The notes below the pieces were generated by a model. That model saw only the letters and a program-made list of their open reading frames with translations, did not search any database and was not told the DNA's origin. DNA of 24,050 bases from an uncultured Burkholderiaceae bacterium (GTDB taxonomy: Bacteria; Pseudomonadota; Gammaproteobacteria; Burkholderiales; Burkholderiaceae): contig CALMPB010000271.1 of the NCBI GenBank assembly GCA_937871985.1, positions 1 through 24,050 on the forward strand. Direction: 5' to 3'. Below are positions 1 to 20,816 of the stretch, in pieces (the first letter of the stretch is position 1; each line of letters starts with the position of its first letter). A program made the translations under genes and the position numbers.

Positions 1-1
1 C

Positions 2-669
<668 letters not shown>

Positions 670-673
<4 letters not shown>

Positions 674-1935: not shown

Positions 1936-1936
1936 C

Positions 1937-2176
1937 ATGGCGAAGTTGAAATTGGGGCCGATCGCCGACGACAAGCCCGTCAAGGTCACGGTGGAACTGC
2001 CCGCCGGCCTCCATCGCGATCTCACCACCTATGCGGAAATTCTCGGCCGCGAGGCGGGTCAGCCGGCGACCGATCCGGTGCGCCTGATCGTTCCCATGCT
2101 GGAGCGATTCATTGCGACAGATCGAGGCTTCGCGAAGGCAAAGCAGGCGGACTCATCGCCGCGCCCGCCTGCCTGA
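1937..2176 (+). CDS. DUF2274 family small protein
   Basis: This 79-aa protein begins one base after the trbI stop, with GAGG five bases before the ATG, so it is the last gene of the trb operon. The sequence MAKLKLGPIADDKPVKVTVE followed by LPAGLHRDLTTYAEILGRE matches the DUF2274 family, which regularly follows trbI in alphaproteobacterial and related ICEs. The family's function is not known to me. The basic N-terminus and the helix with LHRDLTTYAEIL resemble a ribbon-helix-helix DNA-binding layout, which would suggest a regulator or accessory transfer role; that is inference. Its last 68 bases overlap the end of the convergent LysR gene. Confidence 0.88.
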   Translation: MAKLKLGPIADDKPVKVTVELPAGLHRDLTTYAEILGREAGQPATDPVRLIVPMLERFIATDRGFAKAKQADSSPRPPA

Positions 2177-3068: not shown

Positions 3069-3167
3069 AATGGAGACACCCTTCTCCAGTTTTCGAGCTG
3101 CAAATTGGATCACGTCGATTGCACGATATGAAGCCAAGCAGTTTCACACTTCTTGATGTATTAATTT

Positions 3168-5942
3168 TTACACGCCACTCGCGATCTCAACGTATCCTAT
3201 TAACTCGGCGGAATAGCTGCCGTCGCCGTTCGCAGCCCCCTTGTGTTTCAGTTCACGCTGCAAAGTCGGCTCGACGGCTTGCGCGAAAATATCCGCTCGC
3301 TGCTCCGGTTGGAAAGTTGGTGGGGCCGCCGGCGCATGTAGATATTTCTCGCACGCCCGTTCAACCGCTGGGATGCGCGCGCCGTCCAGGTTGACGGCAA
3401 TGGGCTGCACCACCACGCGACGCTCACCGTTGCCAGCGGACGTCTCCACCATCCACAAAGATAGCAGCACCGGCCCTTCAACATCACCGGACACGGCAAT
3501 GCCGATTTCCTCTGGAGCCACACTACGCCAACGCCCCAACTCCTCTTGTACCAGCGGGTGATCCAGACCCATCAGTTGCAGCTCATCCTGATTTGTTGCC
3601 GCCTCACGATTCAAGGTGAAGCGCGCGCGACGATTGCCCTCAGAAGTGACGAGATCGTATGTGGCGTCGTCCACCTTCACCAGCTTCTGCTGGCGGTCCA
3701 CGACCGCTGCCGCGAAGAAACGCACAAGTCGATCCAGACTGGACGAGACATCCGAAAACGGCTTGTAGTCATCCAAACTGAATCCATCGAGATCTTGGAA
3801 AAGATCGAAGACAACCTGCCGAGCTTCACGAGAGTTAGAGAGCGCTGCCTCCAATTCCACTTGGGTACGCTTTAGCTCAGGATCAGACAGCGCCTCTTGG
3901 TACAGGCGGTCATAATTTAACCGTTCGGACAACTGCCCAAGAATCTGCGCCCGCAAATCTTCCGCAACATTGCCCTGCTCGTCGACTTTGCCCACCGTCC
4001 GGGCGATTTCGGTCAACTTCTCATCCAGCAACAGGAAGATACGCCCCTCGATGGTGTCCGAGAGAACAAGGTTATAAACCTGCGCGGTGTGGCTCTGGCC
4101 GTAGCGGTGGATGCGCCCGATGCGCTGCTCCATATCCATCGGGTTCCACGGCAGATCGAAGTTAAACAAGATACGCGCAAATTGCAGGTTGATGCCTTCG
4201 CGGCCCGCCGCTGTGCAAACCAACACGCGAGGCCCGTCCTTCTGTCGGAAGCGACGTTCCGCCGCCACCTTGGCCCCGTGATCCCCGCCGCGCAACACCA
4301 CCACGCCCTGACCGGGGAAGGTTTGCTCAATCTCGCGGGCGATCATGTCCACCGTGCCGAGATAGGTGGCGAAGATCACGATCTTCTCGTTCTGGTTCTG
4401 CCGCCAAAGCGTCCCCAAACCATCGAGCAGCTTCTGCATTTTGGTTTCGCGCTGAGGCGGAAACGCACCCAGCAGATCGCCGATACGCAAGCGCTCTTCT
4501 GGCAAGTGCAGATTGACGACCGCAGAGGCAGCTTCTTCCGCATGTGAGGCCGAATACTCGCTGTCGTAGGGGTCGGAGGCCATCTCCAGGGCCTCTTCAT
4601 CCAGCTTCTTGACTAGCCGGTATTTCAAGTCGGCCAGCACACGATCCACCTCGCTGCGCCCGATGCTATCGCGCGGCAGATCGAATTCCTGGTGGATCAG
4701 TTCGCGCGCTTCCTCAGTCAGCCGTTCCCGCCCCTCGATGTCCAATTCCTTGTCGCGCAGCAGCGCCTCATGCAGGGTCAGCATCAACAAGCGGCGCTTG
4801 AGCGTTCGGCGCACGGCCGCGAAACTCGAGGCGGCGATCTTCTGAAAGATCGCCATCAGGAAGCCCAGCGCGCGCCCTTGGTTGCCCTGACGACGCGCGA
4901 GATCGAAGCCGTCCTCCAGATACTCGCGCAGCTTTTCGTAAAACAGCCGCTCTTCCTGCGCCATGATGAAGGATTCGGTGTGAACCCAACGCCGTGCGAA
5001 CAACGGCGAGCCATCTGGCTGGCAAGCATCAGCTTTGGTGCGGCGGAACATCACCGTGTTGAGCCGGTGGCGATTATCCACCATCTCCTCGGGACTGCGG
5101 AACAACGTCGGATTCAGCAACTGCGCCAGCATCCAGAACTGAAAATGGTTACCCTGGTGCGGCGTGGCGGAGAGGAGGAGAAGATCGCGCGAATGATCCT
5201 TGAGCGCCTCCGCCAGCTTGTAGTTCTCCGTTTTCCGTACCTTGCCCCCGGTACGGTAGGCGGTCAGATGATGCGCTTCATCAAACACCACCAAATCCCA
5301 TCGTGGCGCATCCAGCAGCCGCTTGATACGCGCCGGACGCTTCAACGTGTCGATGCTGGCGATCAGCCGGTCGTGCTTGGCAAAGGCGTTCGTCTTGCGA
5401 TCGGTGATGTCGCCTTCGGAGCCGAACACCTCGAAATCGAGATTGAACACCTCATTCAATTCGCGATGCCAATTGTTTACGAGACCGGCGGGCACGACCA
5501 TCAAAGCGCGGTTCAGCTCCCCCCGACTGGCAAGCTCGCGCAAGATCAGCGCGGTTTCGATGGTTTTCCCCAAGCCCACTTCGTCGGCAATCAGATAGCG
5601 CCGGGGTGAAGCCGTGGCGATGCGATGGGTCAGGACCACTTGGTGCGGCAGAAGATCAATCTTCGCTGATGTCAGCGCCGAGGCGCTTTCCATCACCGGA
5701 AGCGCATGCGCCTCGTAAGACAGCCACGCCTTGCGACCGCGTTCAGCGCTGCCGTCCACGGCGCGCAGAATGCGCTCGGTGCGCGTAAGCTCTCGCCGTA
5801 GCGAAGCAGCCGGGACACGCCGCTCGCCGACGCTGAAGAAGGCCCGCAGATAACCGTCTCGAGCCTGCTCAAGGACGACGCCCTGACCATGTTCGTGGTG
5901 AGTGATACGCTCGCCGGGCTGGAACTGAAACTCTACCGTCAC
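3168..5942 (-). CDS. SNF2-family helicase (RapA/HepA-like, DrmD-like)
   Basis: This 924-aa SF2 ATPase of the SNF2/RapA type has complete helicase motifs: motif I DEVGLGKTIE (about 120-129), motif II DEAHH (221-225), motif III LLLSATPHQGN (about 255-265), and in the C-terminal lobe TAAGREGINLQ and QRIGRIHRYGQ. Residues 8-23 (QPGERITHHEHGQGVV) look like the Tudor/CarD-like N-terminal module of RapA-type proteins. The last 300 residues are family-specific and probably regulatory. The start is a GTG with GAGG eight bases upstream, nine bases after the preceding stop. Similar helicases occur as BrxH-II in type 3 BREX and DrmD in class 1 DISARM, where they are thought to translocate on or remodel phage DNA. 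It is the last gene of the operon. Confidence 0.93.
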   Translation of the reverse strand: MTVEFQFQPGERITHHEHGQGVVLEQARDGYLRAFFSVGERRVPAASLRRELTRTERILRAVDGSAERGRKAWLSYEAHALPVMESASALTSAKIDLLPHQVVLTHRIATASPRRYLIADEVGLGKTIETALILRELASRGELNRALMVVPAGLVNNWHRELNEVFNLDFEVFGSEGDITDRKTNAFAKHDRLIASIDTLKRPARIKRLLDAPRWDLVVFDEAHHLTAYRTGGKVRKTENYKLAEALKDHSRDLLLLSATPHQGNHFQFWMLAQLLNPTLFRSPEEMVDNRHRLNTVMFRRTKADACQPDGSPLFARRWVHTESFIMAQEERLFYEKLREYLEDGFDLARRQGNQGRALGFLMAIFQKIAASSFAAVRRTLKRRLLMLTLHEALLRDKELDIEGRERLTEEARELIHQEFDLPRDSIGRSEVDRVLADLKYRLVKKLDEEALEMASDPYDSEYSASHAEEAASAVVNLHLPEERLRIGDLLGAFPPQRETKMQKLLDGLGTLWRQNQNEKIVIFATYLGTVDMIAREIEQTFPGQGVVVLRGGDHGAKVAAERRFRQKDGPRVLVCTAAGREGINLQFARILFNFDLPWNPMDMEQRIGRIHRYGQSHTAQVYNLVLSDTIEGRIFLLLDEKLTEIARTVGKVDEQGNVAEDLRAQILGQLSERLNYDRLYQEALSDPELKRTQVELEAALSNSREARQVVFDLFQDLDGFSLDDYKPFSDVSSSLDRLVRFFAAAVVDRQQKLVKVDDATYDLVTSEGNRRARFTLNREAATNQDELQLMGLDHPLVQEELGRWRSVAPEEIGIAVSGDVEGPVLLSLWMVETSAGNGERRVVVQPIAVNLDGARIPAVERACEKYLHAPAAPPTFQPEQRADIFAQAVEPTLQRELKHKGAANGDGSYSAELIGYVEIASGV

Positions 5943-5951
5943 GCCGCCGCC

Positions 5952-6449
5952 TCACGTTATCCGCAGGTGGAACAGGCCTGCCGGCCTGCCGCCGTCGTGC
6001 AGCAGGATCTCCTGCGGATATTCGTTGGCTTGTCCCCACAGGATACGGCCGAAGTCGATCTGATGGCCGTGGGGCGCATGACACAGCCAACTCACCTCAT
6101 CCGTGGCGGCCTGCGCCCTGATGCGGTTTTGGCCACCGGGCAACCAGAATGCCAGCGCGGCCTCGCCCTCGTATTCGTCCTGGAACGACAGGATGGCCGG
6201 TTTGATGGCATCGCCCAGCCATGCCTCCGCATCCGCCGGTGTCAGCAGGTCGAGGCTGCCGTCCAGCCCCGCAACCACCAGCGTCTTGCCCCGATTGCTC
6301 GGCAGGTCGTCCGGCCAATTGCCGACCGCTCGCAGAAACTGACGTAGGCTCCAGACCTCGCCAGCCGCGCAAATCTGATTGCGCGCTTCCTCGTCCCACA
6401 CCCAACTGGCGCCGCGCCGCTGCCATACCGTATCAAGCAGTTGCCTCAT
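5952..6449 (-). CDS. Unknown 165-aa protein of the defence operon
   Basis: I do not recognise this family. The protein is 165 aa, acidic and Trp-rich, with no membrane segment, signal peptide or cysteine cluster. It starts with MRQLLDTVWQRRGASWVWDE and later contains ILSFQDEYEGEAALAFWLPG and a C-terminal beta-like run ending GRPAGLFHLRIT. The ATG overlaps the methyltransferase stop (ATGA), with GAGGA nine bases upstream. It lies nine bases before the helicase GTG, so it is made together with both neighbours. Such placement suggests a small partner or adaptor of the methyltransferase or helicase; that is inference from position only. It does not show the P-loop expected of the small BREX protein BrxF. 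Confidence 0.85.
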   Translation of the reverse strand: MRQLLDTVWQRRGASWVWDEEARNQICAAGEVWSLRQFLRAVGNWPDDLPSNRGKTLVVAGLDGSLDLLTPADAEAWLGDAIKPAILSFQDEYEGEAALAFWLPGGQNRIRAQAATDEVSWLCHAPHGHQIDFGRILWGQANEYPQEILLHDGGRPAGLFHLRIT

Positions 6450-9400
6450 CGCGCATAGTCCTCATCGTCACCGAACAGCGCCCCCTGAACGGGCTGAGGC
6501 GCCTGGCTGGACTGCCAGGTTTTGTAGATCGACACGGCCCGAGAAGCCGCATTGCGGGTGGTCTGGTCAGGGCCGTTACGGTGAAGCCATTCCAGCAGCG
6601 GCCTCAGCGCGACGTGCGGCTTGAAGTTCTCATTCTTCAATGTGTCAGAGGCATTGATTCCACTGTTGTCGAAGCACGCCCCGATCAACACCAGCGCCTG
6701 GTCCAGATCGGAGGTCAGACGGCGACGGTGTTTGCCTGACCATTCTCGCGCGAAATTCAATGGATCCGCACGGGTGAAAATCTTGTTCTTCTCCGCGCAC
6801 CAGCCCCGCTGCACGAACTCATCCGGTGTGGTGATCGACCCTTTCAGGAACTTCTGCAACTGATCGCGCTGGAGATCGATCGCGCTGCCAAAGGTGCGTA
6901 AAAACTGGCGCGTAATCGGTTCGGCGTTGACGGGCGGCGGCTCCTTGCCCTTGTCGGCGTCCTCATCAATGAGCTGGTTGATGCCGACCAGCGCATCCTT
7001 GACGGAGATGGTCCGCCCCTCATCGACATAGACCTTGCCGTAGTGCCGCGAGAAATATTCCAGTGCCTTGCCGCGACGGATCACCTGTAGGTCCGCAGCG
7101 GGCAGCCCCTCCTTTGCATGATTTTCCAGCATGGCTTGCAACTGACGAACGTCACCCATCACTTCTCGCCGCATCCGGCCCCAGCTTACCGGCTTGGGCT
7201 CCTCGGTGCGTTTCCGACAGACGTGGATGATGTCGTACTCGATGGTCTTCGAACCAAACTCGCCGTCCCCCTTGGTTTCATCGGAACGGATTGGGTACGT
7301 TGCTTCGAGGTAGAAGCCGGCGTCGAATAGCGATTCCAGAACTGCCACCCACGGTTCATCCTCGCTGTGATGAAAGGTGAAAGCGAGGATGCCACCGGGT
7401 TTGAGCGCACGGTGGGCCTCTCTCCAGCACTGAGTGAGCAGGCGCTGATAGAAGCCGTCTGGGTCTTCCGGTTCACGCGCCTTGTTGGCGACTGCTTCTA
7501 ACGATTTTGGCGTATAGTCAGCGGTGAAGTAATCCGGATATTTGTCCTTAAGCGCTAGGCGCAGCCAGACGTAGAAGAAATCGGATAGCTCCGAATAATG
7601 CAGCAGGCCGCCGAAGGGTGGATCCGTGATGACGAGATCGAGGGTGCCTGCCGAAATGTGCGTTAGGTCGGTCGATGACCCGCAGGTGGCATCTGCCCCC
7701 AATACCGGATCACCAGGATAGACCTTCTCGCTCTTGCCGACGATATTTTCTGCAAGAGTTGCATCGATGCGCCCCAACCCTTCTGCGCTTACAAGCTCCC
7801 AAACTTCAGCTTTCCACTCAATGGCCCCCAACAACCCACGGACAGCAGATTTCCAGTTCCCGTCGCCCACGGCGTTGAATACGCCCGATTCTAGACTTGT
7901 AGATTTGGGATGGAAATTATTGTTGCTTAGCGCTGCCGATATTTGATTATTCTTAATGTGCCATATGCTGAGATTGTTCCCGCATCTCAAATATTGCTGG
8001 ATCGCGCCCAGCACAAACTCCCGTACTTTCCATTCATACTTGCCAACGCTCACGACAGCCTTCAACAATTGCGCATGAACGAGCAACTGACGCGGGTTGA
8101 ACATCATCCACCAGTGGGTGAAACCATGGCCTTCGCGAATATCGCCATTGGCGATGCCAGTCATAAAGCCATAGGGCACACTGGAGCGCGGGTAGTATTC
8201 TTTTAGATCAGCATCCTTGCGCTCATTCCATTCGAGCGCTGCCGCGTCGTATTGCCTTGCAAATGCATTGTCGAAGGACGCAAAGAAACGCCCGCCGTAA
8301 GGATTGCCTGCCGCATCACGCTTGGGCGCATAACATTGCGCCGCGTAAGCTGCCATGGCACCAGTTTTCCCGCTGGCTCTCACCGTCGCCAACACATCCT
8401 GTACTGTGCCGCAAGCTGCACAGGCGAAGTTTGAGCGCTTCGGCACCGTGCCCTTCTCGGGCGCGAACGTGGCGCCCGTCTCCGGGTCCGTTACCTCGTC
8501 CGGCAGCGTGCCGCGCACCTCTAGCAAGCGAATCTTCGCAGCCCGTGCAGCATCCCAGCGGGTACTCGAAGCGACGTCGTCCTGCGCCGAACCGCCATAG
8601 GGCTGACCGTTTGCGTCCTGCTTCGCCTCACCTGCCAGCCATCGCGGATGCACCAGCAGACTCAACGTAACCTTCTTGTTCTTGCCCTTACCGAGATTCA
8701 CTAGCGCGCTGTGGCCGCAATGCGGGCAGACCACCCCTTTCCTTGGATCGAGTATGGAATAGGGCTTTTCGGTCGGTGCGACATAAAGCGGTGCATCTGG
8801 CGCCATGCGCGCAAGGTCATCCTCGACGTCGAAAGTCTCGCCGCACTTGCCGCAGCACTGCTCCCAATGCTTAACGGTGAGGGTCTTCACCGCCATCACC
8901 GGGCTGGTCATGATCGGTGTGCGATGACCGCAACCCGTCACCTGACAGGGACCATGCTTGGCCCAGAAGGTGTAGATGACCTCCGGACCTTCATATTTGT
9001 AATCCTTGCGCTCGTTGCGCGGGATGGTGAGCGGATCGAAACCGGCGGGCATCGCCTTGCCCGTGGGCAGATGCGTCCAGACACCTTTTTCGCCGTCGGG
9101 GCCGTCGCAATAATAGTACGGCATGATCTGCGGTTTGACCTCGGCCTCGATGTCGGCGAGGAGCTTCTTCACTTCCTCCAGATCGACATCGGCCAGTTCC
9201 TGCTTGACTACGAACCACGCCACCGGGTTGAGGTCGTTGCCGGCCATCTGCATCCCGAGGCGGGAACCTTCCACCAGCGTGGTGCCGCCCCCCATGAAAA
9301 TATCGGCGACCTTTAGGCTTCTAAAGGCCCCCTTCTTCTGATGGTTCGCGTAGTAATTGTCCCACACCAGCCTAGCCGAATGTGAGGGGTCATCCGGCGC

Positions 9401-9670
9401 TTTGGTCGCGGCAGCAATCAGCATCGAACGGAACACGCTCGATTGCCGTCGCGCCCACCATTTCGACATCTGATAGATCGGTTTCTTGGCTGCTCCGGAT
9501 GCCGCCTCAACGGCAGAAACATGATTGACCGGCAGGATCGGGAAATCGACTTCCAGGCAGGTTTTGGGGCGGTTGGGATCGTTGAAGTCGACGGTTTCGA
9601 GCGCGACGGCCTTGCCTGCGCCGACGGCCCTGGCGACCTCTTGTGCGAGTATTTCTTTCTTGGTGGCCAT
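6446..9670 (-). CDS. DUF1156 DNA methyltransferase (PglX-I type)
   Basis: This is a 1074-aa amino-methyltransferase that modifies a base in DNA using S-adenosylmethionine. The N-terminal DUF1156 region contains PIYQMSKWWARRQSSVFRSM (about 65-84). A SAM-binding motif follows, FMGGGTTLVEGSRLGM (125-140) with NDLNPVAWFV. The middle holds several Cys pairs consistent with zinc ribbons (CCGKCG, CPHCGHS, CAACGT). The catalytic motif is DPPFGG at 683-688, the form usual in N6-adenine enzymes. I preferred ATG at 9670 over the adjacent TTG at 9673; AAGGA lies nine bases upstream of the ATG and overlaps the stop of the PglZ gene. The relative is PglX-I of type 3 BREX and related defence loci (COG1743). 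Its likely role is self-marking and target recognition; the recognised site cannot be read from the sequence. Confidence 0.94.
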   Translation of the reverse strand: MATKKEILAQEVARAVGAGKAVALETVDFNDPNRPKTCLEVDFPILPVNHVSAVEAASGAAKKPIYQMSKWWARRQSSVFRSMLIAAATKAPDDPSHSARLVWDNYYANHQKKGAFRSLKVADIFMGGGTTLVEGSRLGMQMAGNDLNPVAWFVVKQELADVDLEEVKKLLADIEAEVKPQIMPYYYCDGPDGEKGVWTHLPTGKAMPAGFDPLTIPRNERKDYKYEGPEVIYTFWAKHGPCQVTGCGHRTPIMTSPVMAVKTLTVKHWEQCCGKCGETFDVEDDLARMAPDAPLYVAPTEKPYSILDPRKGVVCPHCGHSALVNLGKGKNKKVTLSLLVHPRWLAGEAKQDANGQPYGGSAQDDVASSTRWDAARAAKIRLLEVRGTLPDEVTDPETGATFAPEKGTVPKRSNFACAACGTVQDVLATVRASGKTGAMAAYAAQCYAPKRDAAGNPYGGRFFASFDNAFARQYDAAALEWNERKDADLKEYYPRSSVPYGFMTGIANGDIREGHGFTHWWMMFNPRQLLVHAQLLKAVVSVGKYEWKVREFVLGAIQQYLRCGNNLSIWHIKNNQISAALSNNNFHPKSTSLESGVFNAVGDGNWKSAVRGLLGAIEWKAEVWELVSAEGLGRIDATLAENIVGKSEKVYPGDPVLGADATCGSSTDLTHISAGTLDLVITDPPFGGLLHYSELSDFFYVWLRLALKDKYPDYFTADYTPKSLEAVANKAREPEDPDGFYQRLLTQCWREAHRALKPGGILAFTFHHSEDEPWVAVLESLFDAGFYLEATYPIRSDETKGDGEFGSKTIEYDIIHVCRKRTEEPKPVSWGRMRREVMGDVRQLQAMLENHAKEGLPAADLQVIRRGKALEYFSRHYGKVYVDEGRTISVKDALVGINQLIDEDADKGKEPPPVNAEPITRQFLRTFGSAIDLQRDQLQKFLKGSITTPDEFVQRGWCAEKNKIFTRADPLNFAREWSGKHRRRLTSDLDQALVLIGACFDNSGINASDTLKNENFKPHVALRPLLEWLHRNGPDQTTRNAASRAVSIYKTWQSSQAPQPVQGALFGDDEDYAR

Positions 9671-9682
9671 CAACCGTAATCC

Positions 9683-10672
9683 TTACTTGGTCAGCTCGAT
9701 GAAGGGCGACAACACCTCCAGCAGCGATAAACCGCCATGCGTGAGCGTCGGGTAGCCGCCGGGGCTGCGCCATTTCCTGCGGCCCAGGGCCAGCAGGTGT
9801 GCGCCATGTGGGCTGTCGATTTGCAGCGCTACGGGCGGCACGAAGGGGCCGGTATCACCTGTGCCAGGCTTGCTGCGCCCACTTGAAAAGGTCTGTTTGA
9901 GAAACTGGCCGACGTCGCCGTCCGCATCTGGGAAGTATCCAGTGGCGGCATAGCCGTGATCGGACGTGATGACCAACCGCCGCCCGGTGGCGAGGCGCTC
10001 CACGAACGCCCAGAAATCATTGCTGGTAAGCTGCTCGGCCGCATCTCGCGTCAATGGCTCCAGCCCTTGGCCAGCGCCGGAGCCGTCGTGCAACTTGGCG
10101 TCCGGCCAATGGTGCCAGAAGATTTGATTGGGCGCGTTACCGATCAGGGCCTCGCAGTCCTTCCACGGCAGATCGACGGTTTCCGTCTGCGCCGGTTGCA
10201 GCCGATGAGCCAAACCGCCACCATTGTTCTGGAGCTTGCTGCGGCTGGCAAAGCCGAGGGCACGTGCAAATTGGTCGGTTTCGCCCGGTAGCTCGGAAGC
10301 GTGGGCGCCAACCTCATGAAGGGTAAAGCCGCGCTCCTTGGCCCCCTGCAACAGCCATGGCAGCTCGCGCAGCGAGAGCCCGTCAAGGATCAGCAGAGCC
10401 TTGGCGCTGAAAGGTTCCGCCCACCAGCGCCCCAATCGATCCGAAGTCCGTTCCACGCTGTCGCCGAAGGCGCGCCACAAATCCCAACCGCTGGATGACA
10501 GGAACAGATCCAACTCACCGATTTCGCGGTCGCGCCTGACGACCTCGCTCGCCGCATTGGCCACGGCCAGGGGCTTGGATGCCACCTCGACCGCGTGGTC
10601 GACAATGACCCGCCAGGCATCGATTTCCGTGCCTTGCTCAAGAGTGTGCAGCGCGCTGACCGACAGGGCCAT
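9683..10672 (-). CDS. pglZ: PglZ-domain protein, short form
   Basis: This 329-aa protein has the metal-binding signatures of the PglZ branch of the alkaline-phosphatase superfamily: ALLILDGLSLRELPWLL with Asp97, VITSDHGYAATG with Asp238 and His239, and THGGLSLLEVLSPFIEL near the end. PglZ proteins are the common core of BREX and Pgl phage-defence systems. The full-length BREX forms I know are roughly 700-900 aa, so this is little more than the catalytic domain with a 90-residue N-terminal extension. The start is ATG at 10672, inside the stop of the DUF499 gene (TGATG), preceded by a very strong GGAGG-type site. The frame continues upstream to 10813 but that part lies inside the ATPase gene. 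Loss of this gene would be expected to abolish defence by analogy with BREX; this is untested here. Confidence 0.88.
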   Translation of the reverse strand: MALSVSALHTLEQGTEIDAWRVIVDHAVEVASKPLAVANAASEVVRRDREIGELDLFLSSSGWDLWRAFGDSVERTSDRLGRWWAEPFSAKALLILDGLSLRELPWLLQGAKERGFTLHEVGAHASELPGETDQFARALGFASRSKLQNNGGGLAHRLQPAQTETVDLPWKDCEALIGNAPNQIFWHHWPDAKLHDGSGAGQGLEPLTRDAAEQLTSNDFWAFVERLATGRRLVITSDHGYAATGYFPDADGDVGQFLKQTFSSGRSKPGTGDTGPFVPPVALQIDSPHGAHLLALGRRKWRSPGGYPTLTHGGLSLLEVLSPFIELTK

Positions 10673-13416
10673 CAATCGCCCTCCTTCTCGAGGTTCAACT
10701 CGAAGGTCATGCCTTCGGGCAGCTTCCTGAGCAGTTCCTTGAGCTGCGCGCCGGTGGCGGCCGACACCTTGATCGACACATCGGCGACGCGCGTGGCCGG
10801 CCCGATACCCCAACTCTCGATCTTGCCGATCAGGTTCAAGGGCGAGGTAGCCGGATTGGCGAGCGGGATACGCGATGGAGTGGTGGGGCCGCCGCCGCCA
10901 AAGATGCCCCCCGGCGCGGGATCGGGAGGAGAACTGGTCGTTCCATCGCCCCCCGGCATAGGTGGTGTGGGAGGTGTCGGCGCAGCCGTACCATCACCAC
11001 CGAAAAGCCCGCCTCCTGCTGTCGTCGGCGGCGATGGCTGAGTAGCTCCGCCCGTCGCAGGCACGGCGGAGGGCAACATCACGAACACATCGTCGAGATG
11101 CCGCCCCGTGAGCGAGAGCTTGGGGCGCAGGCGCCGCCATGCCGTATCCTCATCCTCGCCTGGATGGGTTTGCAGATATTCCATCCCGCGCACATTGAGA
11201 GCGACCTTGCCCCTGGCGCACAAGCGCAGAAGGCGCTCCTTCATCGCGGTTTCGCCCAGCCACGGAATACAATCCTGGCCAGCGGGGCGCGGCTCTTGCA
11301 GCTCGCGCAGCAGCTTGCCGACCGCTTCGTTGTTGTTGGCGAACTCGATCACCAACTCCTCGAAGTCCTCGGGTACAAAGAGATCGCTGGTCAACGCCTC
11401 TTCGATCGCCTCGGGGATCTGCGACCCTTGTTTGTCGAGGCGCTCCACGCTGAATTTGCATTGTGCCGGGTCGGCAAAATTCCACCGCGACAGAACCGCG
11501 AAGCGGTCAAACCGCTTTTTGAGATTGTCCCGCAGGGTGCTCTCAAATTCCTTGTGCAGCTTCCTGTATTCAGGATTTTGGCTGCCCCACTCCTGCGCCT
11601 TCATTTCGGCTCGCGCGAGGATAAGCAGATCGCGGTCCAGAAAAGCGTTTGTGCTGCCGGCGCGCGGTAGCAGGAAGCGCACGGTGTTGCGACGCTTCTG
11701 CAATTGGTCCTTGAGCCAACGCCCCAACGTGGCATCGAGCTTGTCCGGTTCCTCGGGCAGCACGAGAATGGGAAGGCGATCGTCCCATCTGTCAGGATGC
11801 TCGGCATCATCGAGCAGGGTCCACGGATCGTTGGCCCAGGTTCTCGGTAGAGCGATCACGCGAAAGGTCTTGGCAACCTCGTCGCTGCCGGCAATGACGT
11901 AACGGACCTGTTTCGCGAGCTGTGCTTGATCGGCTCCATCGGCGAACAGCTTGTCGTTGCGCGCATAAGCGATCAGTTTGGCGCGCGGGTTTTCCTCCTC
12001 CCGGAACAGCAGCTTGGTGCCTTCCTGGTGGATATTGAAACTGTTCTCAACAATGGTCGCTAGTTCGACGTGAAAAGCGTTGTCATCCACCGGCTTATTG
12101 CGGGTGATGTCCAGTTGCAGCGTGGCCGGCTCCGCTCCGGCAAGATTGCCCACAGCAATCGAGCGTAGCCACAACGCGCCGACGATCTCTTGCAGATGCG
12201 GCGCGACGCTGGCGTGATCGTGCCTCGCTTCCGTCACTGAGATGATATTCTGCTGAGCCTTCTCGCGCAGCGTGCGGTGGTGCTGGTTCGCGACAGCCTC
12301 AAGCAATGCGCCAATGCCCGAGGTATCATCGTCCAGCCGGAAATCGGCCGCGGTGAGCAGCGGGGCGTTCTCACCACGACTCTTGAACAGGTTCGCCAGG
12401 ATTCGGATCAGATCGCGCGTTTCCTGCGCGTCGGTAGCGATGAGCACCTGCTCTTCGAGCAAACGCAGCAAGTGCGGCGCATAGGGCCAGGACTCAGTGA
12501 ATTCCTGACGTTTGCGCTCCTGCTCGGCCGGCGGCACGTCGAGAAGACGGAAAGATTCGGAAACGTGCTGCGCGACGAGCGATTCAATAGTGCCGCTGGC
12601 GATCTGAAGACGGTTGTCGAACAAGCGGTGAAGCAGCATCCGGCGACGATCCTGCTGGATGCGTTCCGCGCTGCCACCCGCTTTGAAATCAATAGCGACG
12701 GGGTTGACGCGATGGACCTGCTGGTAAGCGTCGCTGCCTCCATTCCGCACAGAGATTACCAACACCAGAAGATCGGGACGCTCCTTGGAGATCTCCGATA
12801 GGATCTGGATGAAATTGAACGCCCAATGCTTCCATGGATATTGCTTGGTGTTCGTCAGGCCGTCGTACCACGTCTGGAATTCATCCAGCAGCAGCATGGT
12901 TGGCTTGTGCTCCAACAGCTCGATGATGAGCTTGTCGGATGGGATTTCGGTCTTGGATGCGCCCTGACCTTCCCACTTGCCCTTGATGAACGAGCCGTGA
13001 GGATGATTCTCGAACAGCACGTCCCACAGAAACTTGTAGCGTTGACGGTGCAGGCTTTCGCCGATGACGTGCATCCCGTCGCGCAACGCGATGTTGCCGA
13101 TGTTCGGGTCAGCCAATTTGGCGGCCCACTCCTTGAGCCACGCCCCCGTCGAAGCAGGATCAGTCACTGCATGGTAGAGCGCGGCCATCAAGTGCGACTT
13201 ACCCAGACCGCGCTCACCGATCACGACCACGGGGCGGCCTTGGTTGGGGCCGACGGCCTCAATGCCCTTCAGCAGGTCATGCGTGGGATAGGTAATTTCG
13301 AGAAACTGTTTGGCAGCAATCTGAGTGGCACCAGTTTGCTGATCGTTCGATAGTTCGATGGCAGTGCCCTTGAGGCGCTTCCCCCGAAATTCTTCTCGTA
13401 ATGTAAGTCCCAGCAT
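10672..13416 (-). CDS. DUF499 AAA+ ATPase (BrxC/PglY-like)
   Basis: This 914-aa P-loop ATPase belongs to the DUF499 group (COG1483). Walker A is GERGLGKSH (67-75), Walker B is TMLLLDEFQTW (Asp178-Glu179), and LVLVISVRNGG follows as a sensor-like strand. Long helical regions make up the middle. Residues of about 795-860 are a Pro/Gly/Thr linker with two related GGxFGG units, then a separate domain of about 60 residues ends the protein (QLKELLRKLPEGMTFELNLE). BrxC and PglY ATPases of BREX and Pgl are the functional relatives; they work with PglZ and PglX. The ATG overlaps the stop of the preceding 33-codon ORF (TAATG), with GGGGGA as ribosome site. The stop overlaps the PglZ start by one base. 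Confidence 0.93.
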   Translation of the reverse strand: MLGLTLREEFRGKRLKGTAIELSNDQQTGATQIAAKQFLEITYPTHDLLKGIEAVGPNQGRPVVVIGERGLGKSHLMAALYHAVTDPASTGAWLKEWAAKLADPNIGNIALRDGMHVIGESLHRQRYKFLWDVLFENHPHGSFIKGKWEGQGASKTEIPSDKLIIELLEHKPTMLLLDEFQTWYDGLTNTKQYPWKHWAFNFIQILSEISKERPDLLVLVISVRNGGSDAYQQVHRVNPVAIDFKAGGSAERIQQDRRRMLLHRLFDNRLQIASGTIESLVAQHVSESFRLLDVPPAEQERKRQEFTESWPYAPHLLRLLEEQVLIATDAQETRDLIRILANLFKSRGENAPLLTAADFRLDDDTSGIGALLEAVANQHHRTLREKAQQNIISVTEARHDHASVAPHLQEIVGALWLRSIAVGNLAGAEPATLQLDITRNKPVDDNAFHVELATIVENSFNIHQEGTKLLFREEENPRAKLIAYARNDKLFADGADQAQLAKQVRYVIAGSDEVAKTFRVIALPRTWANDPWTLLDDAEHPDRWDDRLPILVLPEEPDKLDATLGRWLKDQLQKRRNTVRFLLPRAGSTNAFLDRDLLILARAEMKAQEWGSQNPEYRKLHKEFESTLRDNLKKRFDRFAVLSRWNFADPAQCKFSVERLDKQGSQIPEAIEEALTSDLFVPEDFEELVIEFANNNEAVGKLLRELQEPRPAGQDCIPWLGETAMKERLLRLCARGKVALNVRGMEYLQTHPGEDEDTAWRRLRPKLSLTGRHLDDVFVMLPSAVPATGGATQPSPPTTAGGGLFGGDGTAAPTPPTPPMPGGDGTTSSPPDPAPGGIFGGGGPTTPSRIPLANPATSPLNLIGKIESWGIGPATRVADVSIKVSAATGAQLKELLRKLPEGMTFELNLEKEGD

Positions 13417-13517
13417 TACTGTCCCCCGCTTTCCGTCGTTGAGACACGGAAAGGCTCAACCTTAATTTTCTTGGCCCGGCGTATGACTCCGGCCAACTCA
13501 TGATCGAGCTGCCGCAC
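13416..13517 (-). CDS. Possible 33-aa micro-protein between regulator and ATPase
   Basis: A 33-codon frame exactly fills the gap between the WYL gene and the ATPase gene. Its GTG shares one base with the WYL stop (TAGTG) and its TAA shares one base with the ATPase ATG (TAATG). The product is basic with a helix-like body (VRQLDHELAGVIRRAKKIK) and has no recognised domain. The ribosome site is weak (GAG eight to nine bases upstream), so it would depend on coupling to WYL translation. It could be a real small protein, a leader that couples the two genes, or the leftover C-terminus of a longer ancestral regulator. The perfect fit at both ends argues against chance, but no homologue can be checked here. 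Confidence 0.45.
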   Translation of the reverse strand: MRQLDHELAGVIRRAKKIKVEPFRVSTTESGGQ

Positions 13518-14365
13518 TAGCCACTCGCGGGCTCACGCAGAAGCACGATCTGCTGATCCTGCGGGCGCCGCGCTTCAAGCGGGGTATCGAGTCCCAACCG
13601 CCTCAGCGCATAGTAGCGCAACGCCTTTCGAACTTGAATTTGAGCACGCCCCCCTCGCATGCCGTAATCGAGGGCGATGATTCGTTTTTGACTTTCGGAA
13701 AGCTCTGGATGTGGCCCTATTTCCAGCGTGATAAGCTCGTTCCAGTCGGCATCATCCTCGGGCGACACCTCGCTCGGGCGAGTTGATCTGACCTCTATGA
13801 TCCGCGACAGCAAAAAGTCCTTGAACGACCTGCTGACCTCACAAAAGGCGCGGGTGTGCCACCGAAACCCATCGAAGCCGATTGCATGCGGCGCGATCCA
13901 TCGCCACCGCGGATCATCGCTGGAGAGCGATTGATATTTGATCTCGACCGCTTGGTTCTGCCGGATCGCTGCAAGCATCGTTCGCAGCGTATCGTTGTTG
14001 ACGCCGCGGGCCGGTACAGGCGGTCCAGCATAAGGAGGAGAATGAGCAATCCAGGATTCGGAGGGGGCCAGAATACCTTCGGCGACGGAGCGAAGCTGGT
14101 TGAGGTACTGTCCGGCATCTGGTTTTAGAAAGCAGGGCTGGAACTCATTGCTCGCGATATAGCGCTTAGCGCTCTTGTCGTAGATGGCGTTCTGTGGCGC
14201 GCGTTCCTGGTACAGCGTCAAATCTTTCGACGCCTGTGGCACGGACACGTCGAACGCTCCGATGATGTCCGAACGATTCACGCCGCCTTCCCAGTAAAGG
14301 CGGAACTCGATGAATTCGAGCCGGCGCTCCACACCCCATTTCAATGCCGCAGCGGCCTCTGGCAT
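13517..14365 (-). CDS. WYL-domain transcriptional regulator (BrxR-like)
   Basis: This 282-aa protein has an N-terminal winged helix-turn-helix (about 25-60, with RSDIIGAFDVSVPQASKDLT) and a WYL domain (about 140-205, with VEIKYQSLSS, WRWIAPHAIGFDGFRWHTRA and FKDFLLSRI). A short C-terminal WCX-like part with ALRYYALRRLG follows. Length and layout match BrxR/CapW-type repressors that sit first in BREX and CBASS operons and bind their own promoters. GGAGG lies ten bases before the ATG. As the first gene of the operon, downstream of a good promoter with symmetric and repeated sequences, it is the likely autorepressor of the defence genes. The ligand is unknown; WYL domains are proposed to sense nucleic acids or nucleotides. 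Confidence 0.9.
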   Translation of the reverse strand: MPEAAAALKWGVERRLEFIEFRLYWEGGVNRSDIIGAFDVSVPQASKDLTLYQERAPQNAIYDKSAKRYIASNEFQPCFLKPDAGQYLNQLRSVAEGILAPSESWIAHSPPYAGPPVPARGVNNDTLRTMLAAIRQNQAVEIKYQSLSSDDPRWRWIAPHAIGFDGFRWHTRAFCEVSRSFKDFLLSRIIEVRSTRPSEVSPEDDADWNELITLEIGPHPELSESQKRIIALDYGMRGGRAQIQVRKALRYYALRRLGLDTPLEARRPQDQQIVLLREPASG

Positions 14366-14419
14366 TGCTTTCGTGCCTCCGCGCGCCGATGAGGATAAAA
14401 ACTATATGGACGTATCGAC

Positions 14420-14459
14420 GCGATCCGTGTAATTATTATTCCCATATGGGGCGATCCGT
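14420..14459. promoter_or_regulatory. Candidate operator of the WYL repressor
   Basis: Two direct copies of GCGATCCGT (14420-14428 and 14451-14459) lie 31 bp apart, about three helical turns. One overlaps the -35 box and the other the predicted transcription start. Between them, inside the promoter spacer, is the perfect 10-bp palindrome CCCATATGGG (14441-14450). Binding of a dimeric regulator here would block RNA polymerase. The assignment to the WYL protein is inference from position. Confidence 0.45.
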
Positions 14460-14462
14460 CAA
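14435..14462 (-). promoter_or_regulatory. Promoter of the defence operon
   Basis: On the minus strand there is a -35 TTGACG (14457-14462) and a -10 AATAAT (14435-14440) with a 16-bp spacer. A second AATAAT lies three bases further on with 19-bp spacing. The predicted transcript would start near 14428, leaving a leader of about 60 nt before the WYL ATG. This AT-rich block stands out against the GC-rich surroundings. It is the only convincing promoter-like sequence I found upstream of the operon. Confidence 0.6.
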
Positions 14463-14500
14463 TGGTGATTGGCCGGATGGCTTTTGGGGTGGGGCACGAC

Positions 14501-14644
14501 ATGCGGAAACGCGGTTCAGAGATTGAAATCGCCAACAAACGGACCGCCTGCGGCGGCGCCAAGGCGTTGCGCAGCCCCAACAGCAGCACGCTCGCAAGGA
14601 CGGCAGCCGCATCGACGACGCCCCAGCAGCTCGACAGCAAGTAA
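14501..14644 (+). CDS. Possible 47-aa small protein
   Basis: An ATG at 14501 opens a 47-codon frame ending in the TAA at 14642-14644, 20 bases before the next gene. A G-rich stretch (GGGGTGGGG) stands about six bases upstream as a possible ribosome site. The product is basic and its second half, AKALRSPNSSTLARTAAAST, resembles a widespread family of short hypothetical proteins with Ala/Ser/Lys-rich helical repeats; I base this on memory of the pattern, not a search. The function of that family is unknown to me. The antisense frame across the same bases is also open, as is common in GC-rich DNA, so the call is uncertain. Confidence 0.35.
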   Translation: MRKRGSEIEIANKRTACGGAKALRSPNSSTLARTAAASTTPQQLDSK

Positions 14645-14664
14645 TGCCCGGAAGGAGAGCGGCT

Positions 14665-17319
14665 ATGACCATCGCACATCGATCCACACTGGTCGTTCAC
14701 GGCCGCCTCGCTATGCGGGAGAGCCGACTGGCGGCGGGCCGTGGCGGTCGCCACGGCCTCCAGATCATGTCCTTTGAGCAGGCCGCCGTCCGGCTGGCCG
14801 GCGGCTTCGTCCGGCCCATCGACGACGAGAGCCTGCGCGCGGCCATCCAGGCGGCCCTGCCCACAACGCCGATGGGCGAGCTGGAGAGCATCAAGGCTCT
14901 TCCCGGCATGATCGACGCGGCGGCCGACACGCTCCACAAAGCCTGGCGCGCGGGCATCGATCTGGCGACACACGCGGCCAGTCATCAGCGGCTCGCCGCC
15001 ATCGCGCGCCTGGAGGCGGCCGTCCTCGACCAGCTTCCGTTCGGTATGATGCGGCCCCTCGACATCGTCGCCGCCGCTACCGCCCGCATCGATCATGCGC
15101 CGATGGTCCTCGGCCCGATGGAGATCGTCGGCCTTACCGAACTCTCGCCCTGCTGGCGGCCGCTGCTCCAGGCCCTCACGGCCCATATCCCCGTGCAGTG
15201 GACGGCCGGCCCGAGGAGCGTTCCCGCATGGCTGAGCGGCACCGGCGTCACGGTCACGCGCGCACCGGCGCAAGAGCCGGGGATCAGCGTGGTCAGCGCA
15301 GCGACGGCCTATCACGAGGCTATCGAGGCGATGCGTTGGGCGCGAAGCCTGCTCGCCTCGGGCGTCTCGCCCTCGGAGATCGCCATCGCGACCGCCTCGC
15401 CCGCCGACTATGACGATCATTTCCTGGCCCTGCGCGCCGACGCCAATATCGACCTGCACTTCATCCACGGCGTCCGCACCGTCACCACCCGCGAGGGCCA
15501 GGCGGCCGCCGCGCTGGCCGACATCGTGGTCCGGGGCCTGTCGCAGTCGCGGCTGCGGCGCCTCGCGGCGTTCTGCCGGGATAGCGGGCCTTTCGAGACC
15601 CTGCCCGAAGGCTGGCTGCGGGTCCTGCCGACCGATGCACCGCTTTCGACGCCGGGCGCCTGGAACCGTCTGCTGGCCCGGTTGACGCCGGAAGACTGGC
15701 CCGACGGCACCGACCATGTTCCGGCGCTGCGCGCAGCGATCGAGACTTTGGCGAAAGGATCGGACGCCGCCAGCGAGATCGGAGAAGCCTACCTCAAGGG
15801 CCGCGCGCTCGCGATCTGGCGTAAGGCACTGCTCGCCGGCCCTGCCGCCTCGATCGATGCGACGCTGGAAACCCTAAAGCAGGACGACGGACTGGAGGCG
15901 TGCGTCTGCGTCGCCTGGATGCCGGCTAGCGCGCTCGCCGCGTCGCCCCGCCGCTACGTGCGGCTCCTCGGGCTCAATTCCTCGCGCTGGCCGCGTGGGA
16001 TTGCCGAGGACCGGCTGATCCCGGACCACATCATCCCGACCCCGATGCTCGATCCGCTGCCGGTCAATCTCGCCGACCGCCGCGATTTCGAGACGATCCT
16101 CGCCACGACGGCTGGCGCCGTTGTCCTCTCGCGCGCCCGGCGCGACAGCGACGGGCGCCTTCTGGGACGCAGCCCCCTGCTCGCCGGTCGGGGCGACGAA
16201 ACCTATCTGCGCCGCAACGCGACGCCGGCGCACGCTTTCAGCGAAACCGACCGCCTAATGTCCCGGCCGCAGGAGTTCGCGACAGATCCGCAAGCGGTCG
16301 GCGCGCAGGGCTGCTGGCGCGACTGGCGGCAGGCCGAGATCACCCCCCATGACGGGCTCGTGCGCGCGGATCATCCGCTCATTCTCGCCATCCTCGGCCG
16401 CACCCAGTCGGCCAGCTCACTGCGCCGCCTGCTGCGCAATCCGCTCAGCTTCGTGTGGGTCTATGCGTTCGGATGGCGTGAACCGCAGAGCAGCTCCGAA
16501 CCGCTCGTCCTCGACGCCCTCGGGATCGGCGATCTCGTCCACATGGTTCTCGACCGCGCTTTGCGTGGCCTCGAAACCGGCGGCGGCCTTGCCTCCGCCG
16601 ACACGGAGACCATCGAGGCGGCGGTGGCGCAAGCCGGGCAGGCCGTCGCCGCCGATTGGGAAAGCGAGCGTCCGGTTCCGCCGGCCGTCATCTGGGGCCG
16701 AACCCTCGACGATGCCCGCGTGATGGCGGGGCGCGCCCTTTCCTATGGCGATGAGATCCTGCCCGGAGCGCGCGCCTTTGGCGAAGTGCCGTTCGGCGGC
16801 TTGGAGCCGAAATCCGACGCCGAGACGCCTTGGGATGCGAGCACGCCGGTCACGATTCCCGACACGGGCTTCAGCATCGCCGGCTATATCGACCGGCTCG
16901 ACATCTCGGGCGACGGCAAGCGCGCGCTCGTGCGCGACTACAAGACCGGCCGACCGCCGCGGGGCGAGATCCGGCTGAACGGCGGACGCGAGCTGCAGCG
17001 CTGCCTCTATGCCTTCGCGGTGAAGGCGCTCCTTGGCGACGACGTCGCCATCAGCGCCTCGCTGCTTTACCCGCGCGAGCCCGTCGATCTTCAGCTCGAC
17101 GATCCCGAGGCCGTGCTCGCGGAGATCACGGGCTATCTCCGCGCGGCAAGGACGAGTCTCGCCGACGGCGCGGCTCTGCCTGGCCCGGATACCGGCGGCG
17201 ATTATGACGACCTCGCCTTCGCCCTGCCGGCCAACGCCAGCGCCACCTATTGCAAACGCAAAATGCCTGCCGCGACGGAGCGGCTGGGCGAAGTCGCTCA
17301 GGTCTGGGAGGCGAAATGA
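14665..17319 (+). CDS. AddB-like PD-(D/E)XK nuclease family protein
   Basis: This is an 884-aa protein. The C-terminal third carries a RecB/Cas4-type PD-(D/E)XK nuclease with the ordered motifs GYIDRLD (Asp743), VRDYKTG (Asp758-Tyr-Lys760) and LQRCLYAFA (Gln778). The N-terminal two thirds look like an inactive helicase scaffold, as in AddB: I see no Walker A motif. The four-cysteine iron-sulphur signature of true AddB is also absent. The start at 14665 has AAGGAG seven bases upstream; an in-frame ATG at 14644 has no such site. The stop is embedded in the start region of the AddA-like gene, so the two are translated as a pair. Likely role: subunit of a DNA end-processing helicase-nuclease. Whether that serves ICE transfer, repair or defence is open. 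Confidence 0.85.
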   Translation: MTIAHRSTLVVHGRLAMRESRLAAGRGGRHGLQIMSFEQAAVRLAGGFVRPIDDESLRAAIQAALPTTPMGELESIKALPGMIDAAADTLHKAWRAGIDLATHAASHQRLAAIARLEAAVLDQLPFGMMRPLDIVAAATARIDHAPMVLGPMEIVGLTELSPCWRPLLQALTAHIPVQWTAGPRSVPAWLSGTGVTVTRAPAQEPGISVVSAATAYHEAIEAMRWARSLLASGVSPSEIAIATASPADYDDHFLALRADANIDLHFIHGVRTVTTREGQAAAALADIVVRGLSQSRLRRLAAFCRDSGPFETLPEGWLRVLPTDAPLSTPGAWNRLLARLTPEDWPDGTDHVPALRAAIETLAKGSDAASEIGEAYLKGRALAIWRKALLAGPAASIDATLETLKQDDGLEACVCVAWMPASALAASPRRYVRLLGLNSSRWPRGIAEDRLIPDHIIPTPMLDPLPVNLADRRDFETILATTAGAVVLSRARRDSDGRLLGRSPLLAGRGDETYLRRNATPAHAFSETDRLMSRPQEFATDPQAVGAQGCWRDWRQAEITPHDGLVRADHPLILAILGRTQSASSLRRLLRNPLSFVWVYAFGWREPQSSSEPLVLDALGIGDLVHMVLDRALRGLETGGGLASADTETIEAAVAQAGQAVAADWESERPVPPAVIWGRTLDDARVMAGRALSYGDEILPGARAFGEVPFGGLEPKSDAETPWDASTPVTIPDTGFSIAGYIDRLDISGDGKRALVRDYKTGRPPRGEIRLNGGRELQRCLYAFAVKALLGDDVAISASLLYPREPVDLQLDDPEAVLAEITGYLRAARTSLADGAALPGPDTGGDYDDLAFALPANASATYCKRKMPAATERLGEVAQVWEAK

Positions 17320-20696: not shown

Positions 20697-20816
20697 ATTT
20701 CGCGACATAAAGGCATCAACTCGACCACCGAGAGTAAAAAATTAGAATCCTGATCTGGTTATTCTGGAATCTGGGCAACTGGCTTGCAAAGATGGATGTC
20801 CAAGGGGGGAACGGCT
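20697..20816 (+). other. Gap between AddA-like and HelD-like genes
   Basis: This 120-bp stretch is AT-richer than its flanks. It begins with a short sequence, TTCGCGACAT followed by AAAGGCATCA (20699-20718), that recurs beyond the HelD-like gene. I see no clear promoter or terminator in it. Confidence 0.4.

Follow-up and report, generated by a model that had tools for sequence, protein, structure and literature searches.

A probable Type-3 BREX-Related defence operon headed by a WYL–nuclease cassette that is shared with other defence operons

We analyzed a 24,050-nucleotide stretch of DNA from an uncultured Burkholderiaceae bacterium (assembly GCA_937871985.1, contig CALMPB010000271.1, positions 1 to 24,050; hereafter, the window), the minus strand of which carries a block of five tightly packed genes running from 13416 to 3168, with the gene of a WYL-domain regulator 100 bases upstream. 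The five-gene operon is likely to be a Type-3 BREX-Related (BR) system, i.e., a self-marking defence against foreign DNA, of the DUF499-centred kind named in the main text of Rakesh and Krishnan (2026; PMC12839542). The WYL gene, an operator-like site, and a divergent PD-(D/E)XK/UvrD gene pair form a separate cassette that is common to other defence operons. The five genes of the operon are:

10672..13416, minus strand: DUF499-type AAA+ ATPase, BrxC-like scaffold, 914 residues (Pfam DUF499)
9683..10672, minus strand: standalone PglZ-domain protein, 329 residues, predicted metal-dependent phosphodiesterase/nuclease (by fold)
6446..9673, minus strand: predicted DNA adenine methyltransferase, 1075 residues (PF01555; HmaB and PglXI matches)
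5952..6449, minus strand: 165-residue protein, probably an iSTAND-like (BrxB/BrxF-type inactive P-loop) sensor/adaptor
3168..5942, minus strand: RapA/SNF2-family helicase, BrxHII-like, 924 residues (PADLOC BrxHI/BrxHII; RapA)

A sequence-only reading of this DNA had described a compact operon of six genes, the WYL gene included, with kinship to BREX. All six open reading frames lie on the minus strand at, or very near, the positions given then, and gene identities and compactness were borne out by coordinates, Pfam families, and recurring gene order; the kinship with BREX likewise held, in the form of PglXI/BrxHII/BrxC/PglZ logic. The search of defence-system models and the neighborhood comparison suggested in that reading returned PADLOC matches to BrxH, HmaA, and HmaB, an NCBIfam match to DrmD, and a gene order that recurs. 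Within the five-gene block, the stop of the ATPase gene overlaps the start of the PglZ gene, and the other junctions are a gap of 9 bases, a 4-base overlap, and a second gap of 9 bases.

According to the main text of PMC12839542, Type-3 BR systems consist of a DUF499 ATPase, an N6-methyltransferase, a BrxHII-like helicase without a nuclease, a standalone active PglZ, and a small iSTAND protein, with PglZ near-universal in 569 taxa and iSTAND present in 82%; in a subset, the methyltransferase has two 4-Cys fingers in an insert of its target-recognition domain (TRD). The window operon encodes a DUF499 ATPase, an N6-methyltransferase with a TRD insert and two 4-Cys sets, a nuclease-less BrxHII/RapA-like helicase, and a standalone PglZ that is predicted from its fold and conserved residues to be catalytically intact. 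Since the published description of Type-3 BR holds the same five-gene set, a named system with exactly this content exists, as far as can be tested, and the earlier view of an unnamed, non-canonical system is not supported.

The ATPase matched Pfam DUF499 at 29.7 bits (cut-off, 23), and its Walker A (GERGLGKS) and Walker B (LLLDEF) motifs are conserved with minor variants in 72 aligned rows. Residues 801 to 850 (window ~10867-11016) are a Pro/Gly-rich hypervariable linker ahead of a conserved C-terminal domain, with a mean identity of 38% against 80% for the following 50 residues. For the PglZ gene, the start was corrected to the ATG at 10672 from 10813. The short PglZ of the sequence-only reading stood by fold and by length, although its listed start was wrong, no PglZ match was found in Pfam, and the match with the PADLOC PglZ model was weak (E 0.023). 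Its candidate metal-site residues are invariant; the PglZ profile, searched against the sequences of solved structures, reached PorX only at E 0.3. The helicase matched Pfam SNF2 (75.5 bits) and the PADLOC BrxHI/BrxHII model (339.5 bits), with RapA as the closest solved match (147.5 bits). GLGKT is present in 70/70 aligned rows and DEAH in 69/70, and the Pfam scan found no nuclease family in its 924 residues.

The methyltransferase matched N6_N4_Mtase (PF01555) at 29.5 bits (cut-off, 26.7), HmaB at 125.5 bits, and PglXI at 79.1 bits, and carries the motifs KWWARR, FMGGGT, and DPPF. In an alignment of 79 sequences, window included, TDPPF occurs in 79/79 rows, and C243/248/274/277 and C316/319/418 are conserved in 100% and C421 in 92%. 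These two 4-Cys sets match the finger feature of the Type-3 BR subset and are putative fingers. The central target-recognition region (~400-660) is variable. In locus L001, the helicase is 99% identical to that of the window and the C-terminal blocks of the methyltransferase (701-1050) are 94-100% identical, whereas residues 401-650 are only 52-72% identical. The twelve largest contrasts combine flanks of 83-95% identity with TRDs of 36-46% (93 and 46 for the window and L020), other pairs are alike in both (e.g., 97 and 96%), and the window TRD is at most 62% identical to that of any other aligned methyltransferase. Steep divergence between conserved flanks is as expected from exchange or fast change of the target-recognition region. 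The methyltransferase should set self-marking, and the variability of its TRD would fit changing site specificity.

To place the operon among its relatives, genomes in GTDB were scanned with the methyltransferase; 238 relatives were found and the best 80 were kept as loci, so the sample leans to close relatives. By tblastn, the ATPase was present in 75/80 loci, PglZ in 75/80, the 165-residue gene in 79/80, and the helicase in 79/80; three loci (L042, L060, and L069) are short or truncated at the end of a contig. The gene order recurs, which argues that the arrangement is not due to chance. Hosts include Alpha-, Beta-, and Gammaproteobacteria, Acidobacteria, Synergistaceae, Planctomycetia, and Bacteroidales. 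Relatives of the PglZ gene were found on 42/72,556 plasmid records, 28 of them Klebsiella, with at least 60% identity in 36/42. No match was obtained when phages were searched with PglZ by tblastn or E. coli genomes with the operon by megablast. The one Klebsiella plasmid operon examined is complete in gene order. It lies on a 142-kb IncFII/IncU plasmid (L114, NZ_CP084988.1), ~4 kb from a carbapenemase gene, and its DUF499 gene matches only 77% of that of the window.

Relatives also carry additional genes between the core genes. Inserts of more than 300 bases were found in 0/75 ATPase–PglZ junctions, 24/75 PglZ–methyltransferase junctions, 7/78 junctions between the methyltransferase and the 165-residue gene, and 9/79 between the latter and the helicase; 33 loci have such inserts, 7 of them in two slots, and all slots of the window operon are empty. 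Twenty insert proteins were scanned against Pfam (six without a family), and similarity to these 20 served to assign the inserts, five of which were left unmatched (two in L029 and one each in L053, L062, and L067). A pair of an AAA ATPase and a subtilase (Peptidase_S8) occupies the PglZ–methyltransferase slot in 8 loci (L005, L008, L017, L033, L034, L038, L039, and L052). The same slot holds a SIR2–HerA pair in 7 loci (L015, L018, L031, L046, L049, L070, and L072), a shortened copy of which is found in L057, and, on the Klebsiella conjugative plasmid L114, a pair annotated as SIR2 and ATP-binding protein. Schlafen/HATPase-type inserts occur in 4 loci, 2 in the slot before the helicase and 2 in the slot after the methyltransferase. 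An AAA_21–DUF4276 pair was seen in 7 loci (L007, L028, L033, L041, L052, L061, and L072), always between the 165-residue gene and the helicase; we take it to be PARIS-like, in line with the description of OLD-ABC/TOPRIM pairs in PMC12839542, and do not claim PARIS proper. The main text of that paper reports PARIS-like and Schlafen companions for BR systems; the terms SIR2, sirtuin, subtilase, and subtilisin do not occur in it. By these terms, SIR2–HerA and AAA–subtilase modules in one fixed slot were not found in that main text.

Several observations weigh against the assignment to Type-3 BR or against the roles given to single genes. The assignment compares gene set and domain features with the published description and not positions in a DUF499 clade tree. 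In L068 and L080, 1.2-1.3 kb upstream of the methyltransferase contain no detected PglZ. DUF1156, which the sequence-only reading had given to the methyltransferase, scored 15.6 bits (cut-off, 24) and is thus sub-threshold; a 76% identical plasmid homologue does carry the DUF1156 annotation, and the methyltransferase itself stood by PF01555. The 165-residue protein is probably an iSTAND-like sensor/adaptor and a candidate counterpart of BrxB/BrxF. When its family profile was compared with BrxF (5 sequences), BrxB (4 sequences), and shuffled controls (n = 60), the local score was matched by 59/60 shuffles for BrxF and 6/60 for BrxB, and the global score was reached by 6/60 for BrxB; the global score with BrxF was reached by 1/60, but in a tail-to-head alignment over 19 columns that is meaningless. 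Foldseek gave no match at E 0.001 for the model of this protein, and a solved-structure search with its profile gave chance matches only; BrxB/BrxF chains are absent among the 50 fold matches listed, which excludes nothing. Moreover, in type-1 BREX the nuclease activity of PglZ is unchanged by BrxB binding, which speaks against a simple switch role.

For methylation, cutting, the role of the 165-residue protein, and repression, we infer the following scheme. By analogy, the DUF499–PglZ pair would be the restricting core, a view supported by the junction between these two genes being the only one free of inserts of more than 300 bases. The ATPase would form a scaffold with PglZ. Directed by its variable target-recognition region, the methyltransferase would methylate adenines within a motif of the host, and the RapA-like helicase would move along DNA; on encountering sites that lack methylation, the complex would have the foreign DNA cut or blocked by the PglZ phosphodiesterase. 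The 165-residue protein probably links sensing with PglZ, a role that has been proposed for BrxB in BREX. Bound between its own promoter and gene, the CapW/BrxR-type WYL protein would hold expression down, and repression would be released by a nucleic-acid or damage signal.

We then turned to the cassette at the head of the operon, which consists of:

13517..14365, minus strand: WYL regulator, CapW/BrxR family by kinship, first gene ahead of the operon
14394..14416, plus strand: operator-like site GATAAAAACTATATGGACGTATC, 28 bases upstream of the WYL start (pattern conservation)
14435..14462, minus strand: promoter-like TTGACG-16-AATAAT for the WYL gene, upstream of the operator-like site (consensus scan)
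14644..17319, plus strand: PD-(D/E)XK nuclease-domain protein, divergent cassette partner (PDDEXK_1, 62.7 bits; real start probably ~14665)
17250..20696, plus strand: UvrD helicase with C-terminal PD-(D/E)XK, partner of the preceding gene (UvrD-helicase, 183.5 bits; PDDEXK_1, 30.8 bits; real start probably downstream of 17250)

The WYL protein scored 45 bits with Pfam WYL, 237.6 bits with Stenotrophomonas maltophilia CapW, and 157.5 bits with BrxR. Only 8/80 relatives have a detectably related gene, which is 31-33% identical in 3 and truncated by a contig end in 1, and WYL is therefore not a core gene; what the earlier reading had counted as an operon component is a leading gene that other defence operons have as well. 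In 49 loci, the sequence extends 3 kb or more beyond the DUF499 gene on its upstream side, and ten upstream genes scanned from these comprised five small helix-turn-helix genes, one remoter WYL/WCX gene (L040), one integrase, and three without a family. Core and cassette also differ in their closest kin. The window core is closest to cassette-less loci (L002, L009, and the Aminobacter plasmid L113; ATPase 94%, PglZ 94-96%), and the PD-(D/E)XK/UvrD pair is closest to that of a Niveispirillum plasmid (93-94%; PD-(D/E)XK gene 93%), on which a WYL gene (51%) adjoins the genes of a sacsin-type protein and of a DrmD-like helicase that scores 385.8 bits (cut-off, 610).

The layout of WYL gene and pair recurs ahead of unlike operons. 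In L051, the combination is the same as in the window, i.e., Type-3 BR with the WYL cassette; in Sinorhizobium L111 and Mesorhizobium L112, the layout heads type-1 BREX (BrxA, BrxB, BrxC, and PglX); and in L143, it heads a sacsin-type gene. L142 has DrmD-like (388.2 bits; cut-off, 610), sacsin-type (47.6 bits; cut-off, 50), and DUF1156-type methyltransferase-like (76.8 bits; cut-off, 1000) genes behind the cassette; given its DrmD score, we do not claim this operon as DISARM. Within 8 kb of the cassette of L134, no recognisable defence operon was found. The WYL-headed operons of L140, L142, and L143, which encode a sacsin-type ATP-binding protein, a DrmD-like helicase, or both, are maybe a further defence operon.

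The pair was also traced by itself. The PD-(D/E)XK protein matched 64 plasmid records, 16 of which were examined, and 9/385 genomes of one class, from 7 of which stretches were examined besides L051; L141 and L144-L146 gave no WYL, BR, or BREX-1 match. Without a WYL gene, the pair adjoins multiubiquitin/ThiF operons (L127-L132, with DUF6527 among the genes), TerB/ATPase/DEAD helicase operons (L133 and L136), and a methyltransferase/helicase/AAA ATPase/endonuclease operon (L135). It thus looks like a general companion module. Most of its occurrences are on alphaproteobacterial plasmids beside unlike defence operons (L111, L112, and L127-L139).

Alignment of the intergenic regions between WYL gene and pair in six cassettes revealed a nearly constant block. 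Its pattern, GATANAAANTATNTGGACNTATC, has a single occurrence in the window (14394-14416), against 0.00 expected in shuffles. The exact pattern is found in 6/146 loci, corresponding to 4 distinct places (L118/L142 and L120/L051 are each one place); L111 has one mismatch and L121/L143, again one place, have two, and with up to two mismatches the site is found nowhere else in 2.22 Mb. Every match lies 25-50 bases from a mapped WYL start. The seven site-bearing cassettes (window, L051, L111, L112, L134, L142, and L143) head Type-3 BR, type-1 BREX, DrmD-like, sacsin-type, or no recognised operon. The site is missing with the 51%-identical WYL of L115/L116/L140 and from L137 (39%), L023, L056, L063, and L083, as well as with the remote WYL genes of L027 and L061; L048 and L107, which end short of the WYL start, are uninformative.

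Between the window and L051 or L134, 20/23 positions of the site are identical, compared with 81 and 61 of 219 for the rest of the intergenic region and 21 and 18 of 36 for the promoter stretch, a contrast that is overstated, since gaps were scored as differences and the L051 and L134 regions are shorter. In L111, L112, and L142, the rest of the region is 53-69% identical, so shared descent explains part of the conservation of the site. The TTGAC of the promoter-like element (plus-strand GTCAA) is invariant in the 6 aligned cassettes. According to the text of PMC9122601, BrxR is a repressor that binds repeats located between its own promoter and gene, and the window has the same order of promoter-like element, candidate site, and gene. 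Three points count against reading the site as such an operator: the 11-base inverted repeats described for BrxR in that text have no equal here, the site having short inverted arms only (GATA/TATC); a search of the gap between the WYL and PD-(D/E)XK genes for inverted repeats of at least 8 bases gave four pairs, none at the site; and the promoter scan found 1 element against 0.5 expected, i.e., chance level.

The two halves of the WYL protein behave differently. Residues 1-80 are 78-90% identical to the window in the six other site-bearing cassettes, compared with 68-70% in site-less L140 and 48-58% in site-less L023, L056, and L063, which indicates that the DNA-binding half goes with the site. 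Residues 121-280 are 52-72% identical in L051, L134, L143, L023, L056, and L063, 35-52% in L111, L112, and L142, and 28-52% in L140. The sensing half is thus closer among BR-type neighbors, a rule broken by L134 and L143, for which no BR operon is shown.

We put forward, tentatively and as a possibility rather than an expectation, that a CapW/BrxR-type repressor, a 23-bp operator, and an AddAB-like pair make up a mobile control-and-degradation cassette that is plugged as a unit before unlike modification-based defences (Type-3 BR, type-1 BREX, and DrmD-like). One switch would turn on both the modification system and a shared nuclease–helicase that finishes off DNA stalled or nicked by the main system, and the regulator would be chimeric, its DNA-binding half kept with the operator and its sensing half varying. 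A closer union, in which the window's core genes, WYL gene, and divergent PD-(D/E)XK/UvrD genes make up a single integrated system whose actual DNA-degrading effector is the AddAB-like pair, is unlikely. The divergent promoter region with its conserved operator-like site is shared, L051 repeats the combination, and the pair also flanks type-1 BREX; however, among the 49 relatives with at least 3 kb upstream, the PD-(D/E)XK gene is found in L051 only (L029 has a weak match to the UvrD partner, 29% over 44%), and the pair is also located next to operons without any detected BR gene. In the literature within scope, which left aside most subscription papers and all supplements, we found no report of a shared WYL–site–pair cassette, and searches for its terms in the text of PMC12839542, PMC9122601, and PMC12458937 did not find it; the text of PMC9122601 already describes BrxR-family regulators near diverse defence systems.

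Outside operon and cassette, one further gene is placed on the plus strand:

20784..23492, plus strand: third plus-strand gene, AAA/UvrD_C_2-type helicase, 902 residues (UvrD_C_2, 43.1 bits)

This gene may belong to the cassette but is a candidate member only; its position is occupied by a different ~1112-residue DEAD/DEAH helicase in L111, L112, L133, and L142. The left flank (1-3137) encodes TrbG and TrbI (conjugation), DUF2274, and a LysR regulator, and the right flank the PD-(D/E)XK protein, the UvrD/PD-(D/E)XK protein, the further UvrD-like protein, and an AlpA-type regulator (23708-24049). From the trb, DUF2274, and LysR genes and the AlpA-type regulator, the operon is probably cargo of a conjugative element or plasmid. 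In Blastomonas L069, trb genes and a LysR gene likewise lie on the helicase side of the operon. The G+C content is 55-64% in the operon, 64-67% in the left flank (1-3000), and 68-71% at 15-20 kb. Scans of the window gave no Rfam match, no tRNA gene, and 3 terminator-like sites against 1.0 expected; a minus-strand open reading frame at 14341-15717 was dismissed, as it has no family match and is overlapped by the PD-(D/E)XK gene.

Among known systems, type-3 BREX (BrxF, BrxC, PglXI, BrxHII, PglZ, and BrxA) has ATPase, methyltransferase, RapA-like helicase, and PglZ logic in common with the window. A degenerate or rearranged type-3 BREX locus, with the missing BrxA and BrxF acting from elsewhere in the genome, would fit the helicase, which scores best with BrxHI/BrxHII, and the PglXI match of the methyltransferase. 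Yet the methyltransferase scores higher with HmaB, the ATPase matches DUF499, PglZ is a short, standalone domain, and neither BrxF nor BrxA was found in the operon proteins, so membership was rejected. When 29 genomes carrying the operon (from 30 of the 80 loci) were searched in full, BrxF was found in 0, BrxA in 4 (each on a contig other than that of the operon), BrxB in 3, and DrmB in 1; such helpers in trans are thus not a general requirement, and this explanation is very improbable. The same counts, taken from relatives, bear on the question, raised with the sequence-only reading, of missing brx or drm genes elsewhere in the genome. As for the genes that reading had reported absent from the operon, there is indeed no best match to BrxA, BrxL, DrmA, DrmB, or DrmC, while the absence of BrxF and BrxB may be only nominal, since the 165-residue protein is a counterpart candidate.

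A shade less probable still is an Hma (Type-1 BR) system with extra genes. A helicase, a methyltransferase (DUF1156-type in Hma), and a DUF499 ATPase are common to both, and the window operon matched HmaA (313.3 bits), HmaB at the score given above, and, weakly, HmaC (E 0.0024). According to the main text of PMC12839542, Type-1 BR has three genes only, and an active nuclease is fused to its helicase (79% of members) or encoded elsewhere in the locus. The window adds PglZ and the 165-residue gene, both widespread among its relatives as counted above, its helicase has 924 residues against 1176 for the HmaA profile and no nuclease family, and the divergent PD-(D/E)XK gene is adjacent in only 1/49 relatives; membership was rejected.

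The least probable of all, a DISARM-like system with the SNF2 helicase (DrmD) as main effector, draws on DrmD being the best NCBIfam match of the helicase (307.5 bits), on a DrmA score of 167.8 bits, and on the WYL cassette heading a DrmD-like operon elsewhere (L142; L140, without the site), but the DrmD score is about half the cut-off of 610, the DrmA score arises from the helicase core and lies well under BrxH, HmaA, and DrmD, PADLOC BrxH and HmaA rank above any Drm model, no window gene has DrmA, DrmB, or DrmC as best match, and DrmB is found in 1/29 operon-bearing genomes (DrmA was not searched in genomes), so that membership in DISARM, class 1 included, was rejected. To our knowledge, PglZ is no part of DISARM, which counts further against it. 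Of the DISARM likeness noted earlier, the SNF2 helicase remains, and the likeness is limited to it.

With Type-3 BR, the operon shares ATPase, methyltransferase, helicase, standalone PglZ, and a small extra protein, the iSTAND identity of which is a candidate. It is thus no orphan but fits a class found here in proteobacterial and some other genomes, in which the variable recognition region should predict different methylation motifs; PglZ relatives also lie on plasmids, clinical Klebsiella plasmids among them. The core operon itself is a further case of what has been described. The sharing of regulator gene, site, and pair with other defence systems looks new; the WYL cassette, the operator-like site, and the SIR2–HerA and subtilase inserts are absent from the main text of PMC12839542 by term search. 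As with BrxR/CapW, a WYL protein related by sequence stands at the head of a defence operon; unlike there, one operator-like site is common to cassettes before different defence operons and comes with a linked PD-(D/E)XK/UvrD pair. Together with the variable recognition region, accessory defence modules in fixed operon slots and a regulator–site–nuclease cassette common to unlike defences offer three testable handles, and the shared cassette is relevant to the way in which defence islands bring self-marking, restriction, and DNA clean-up under a single switch.

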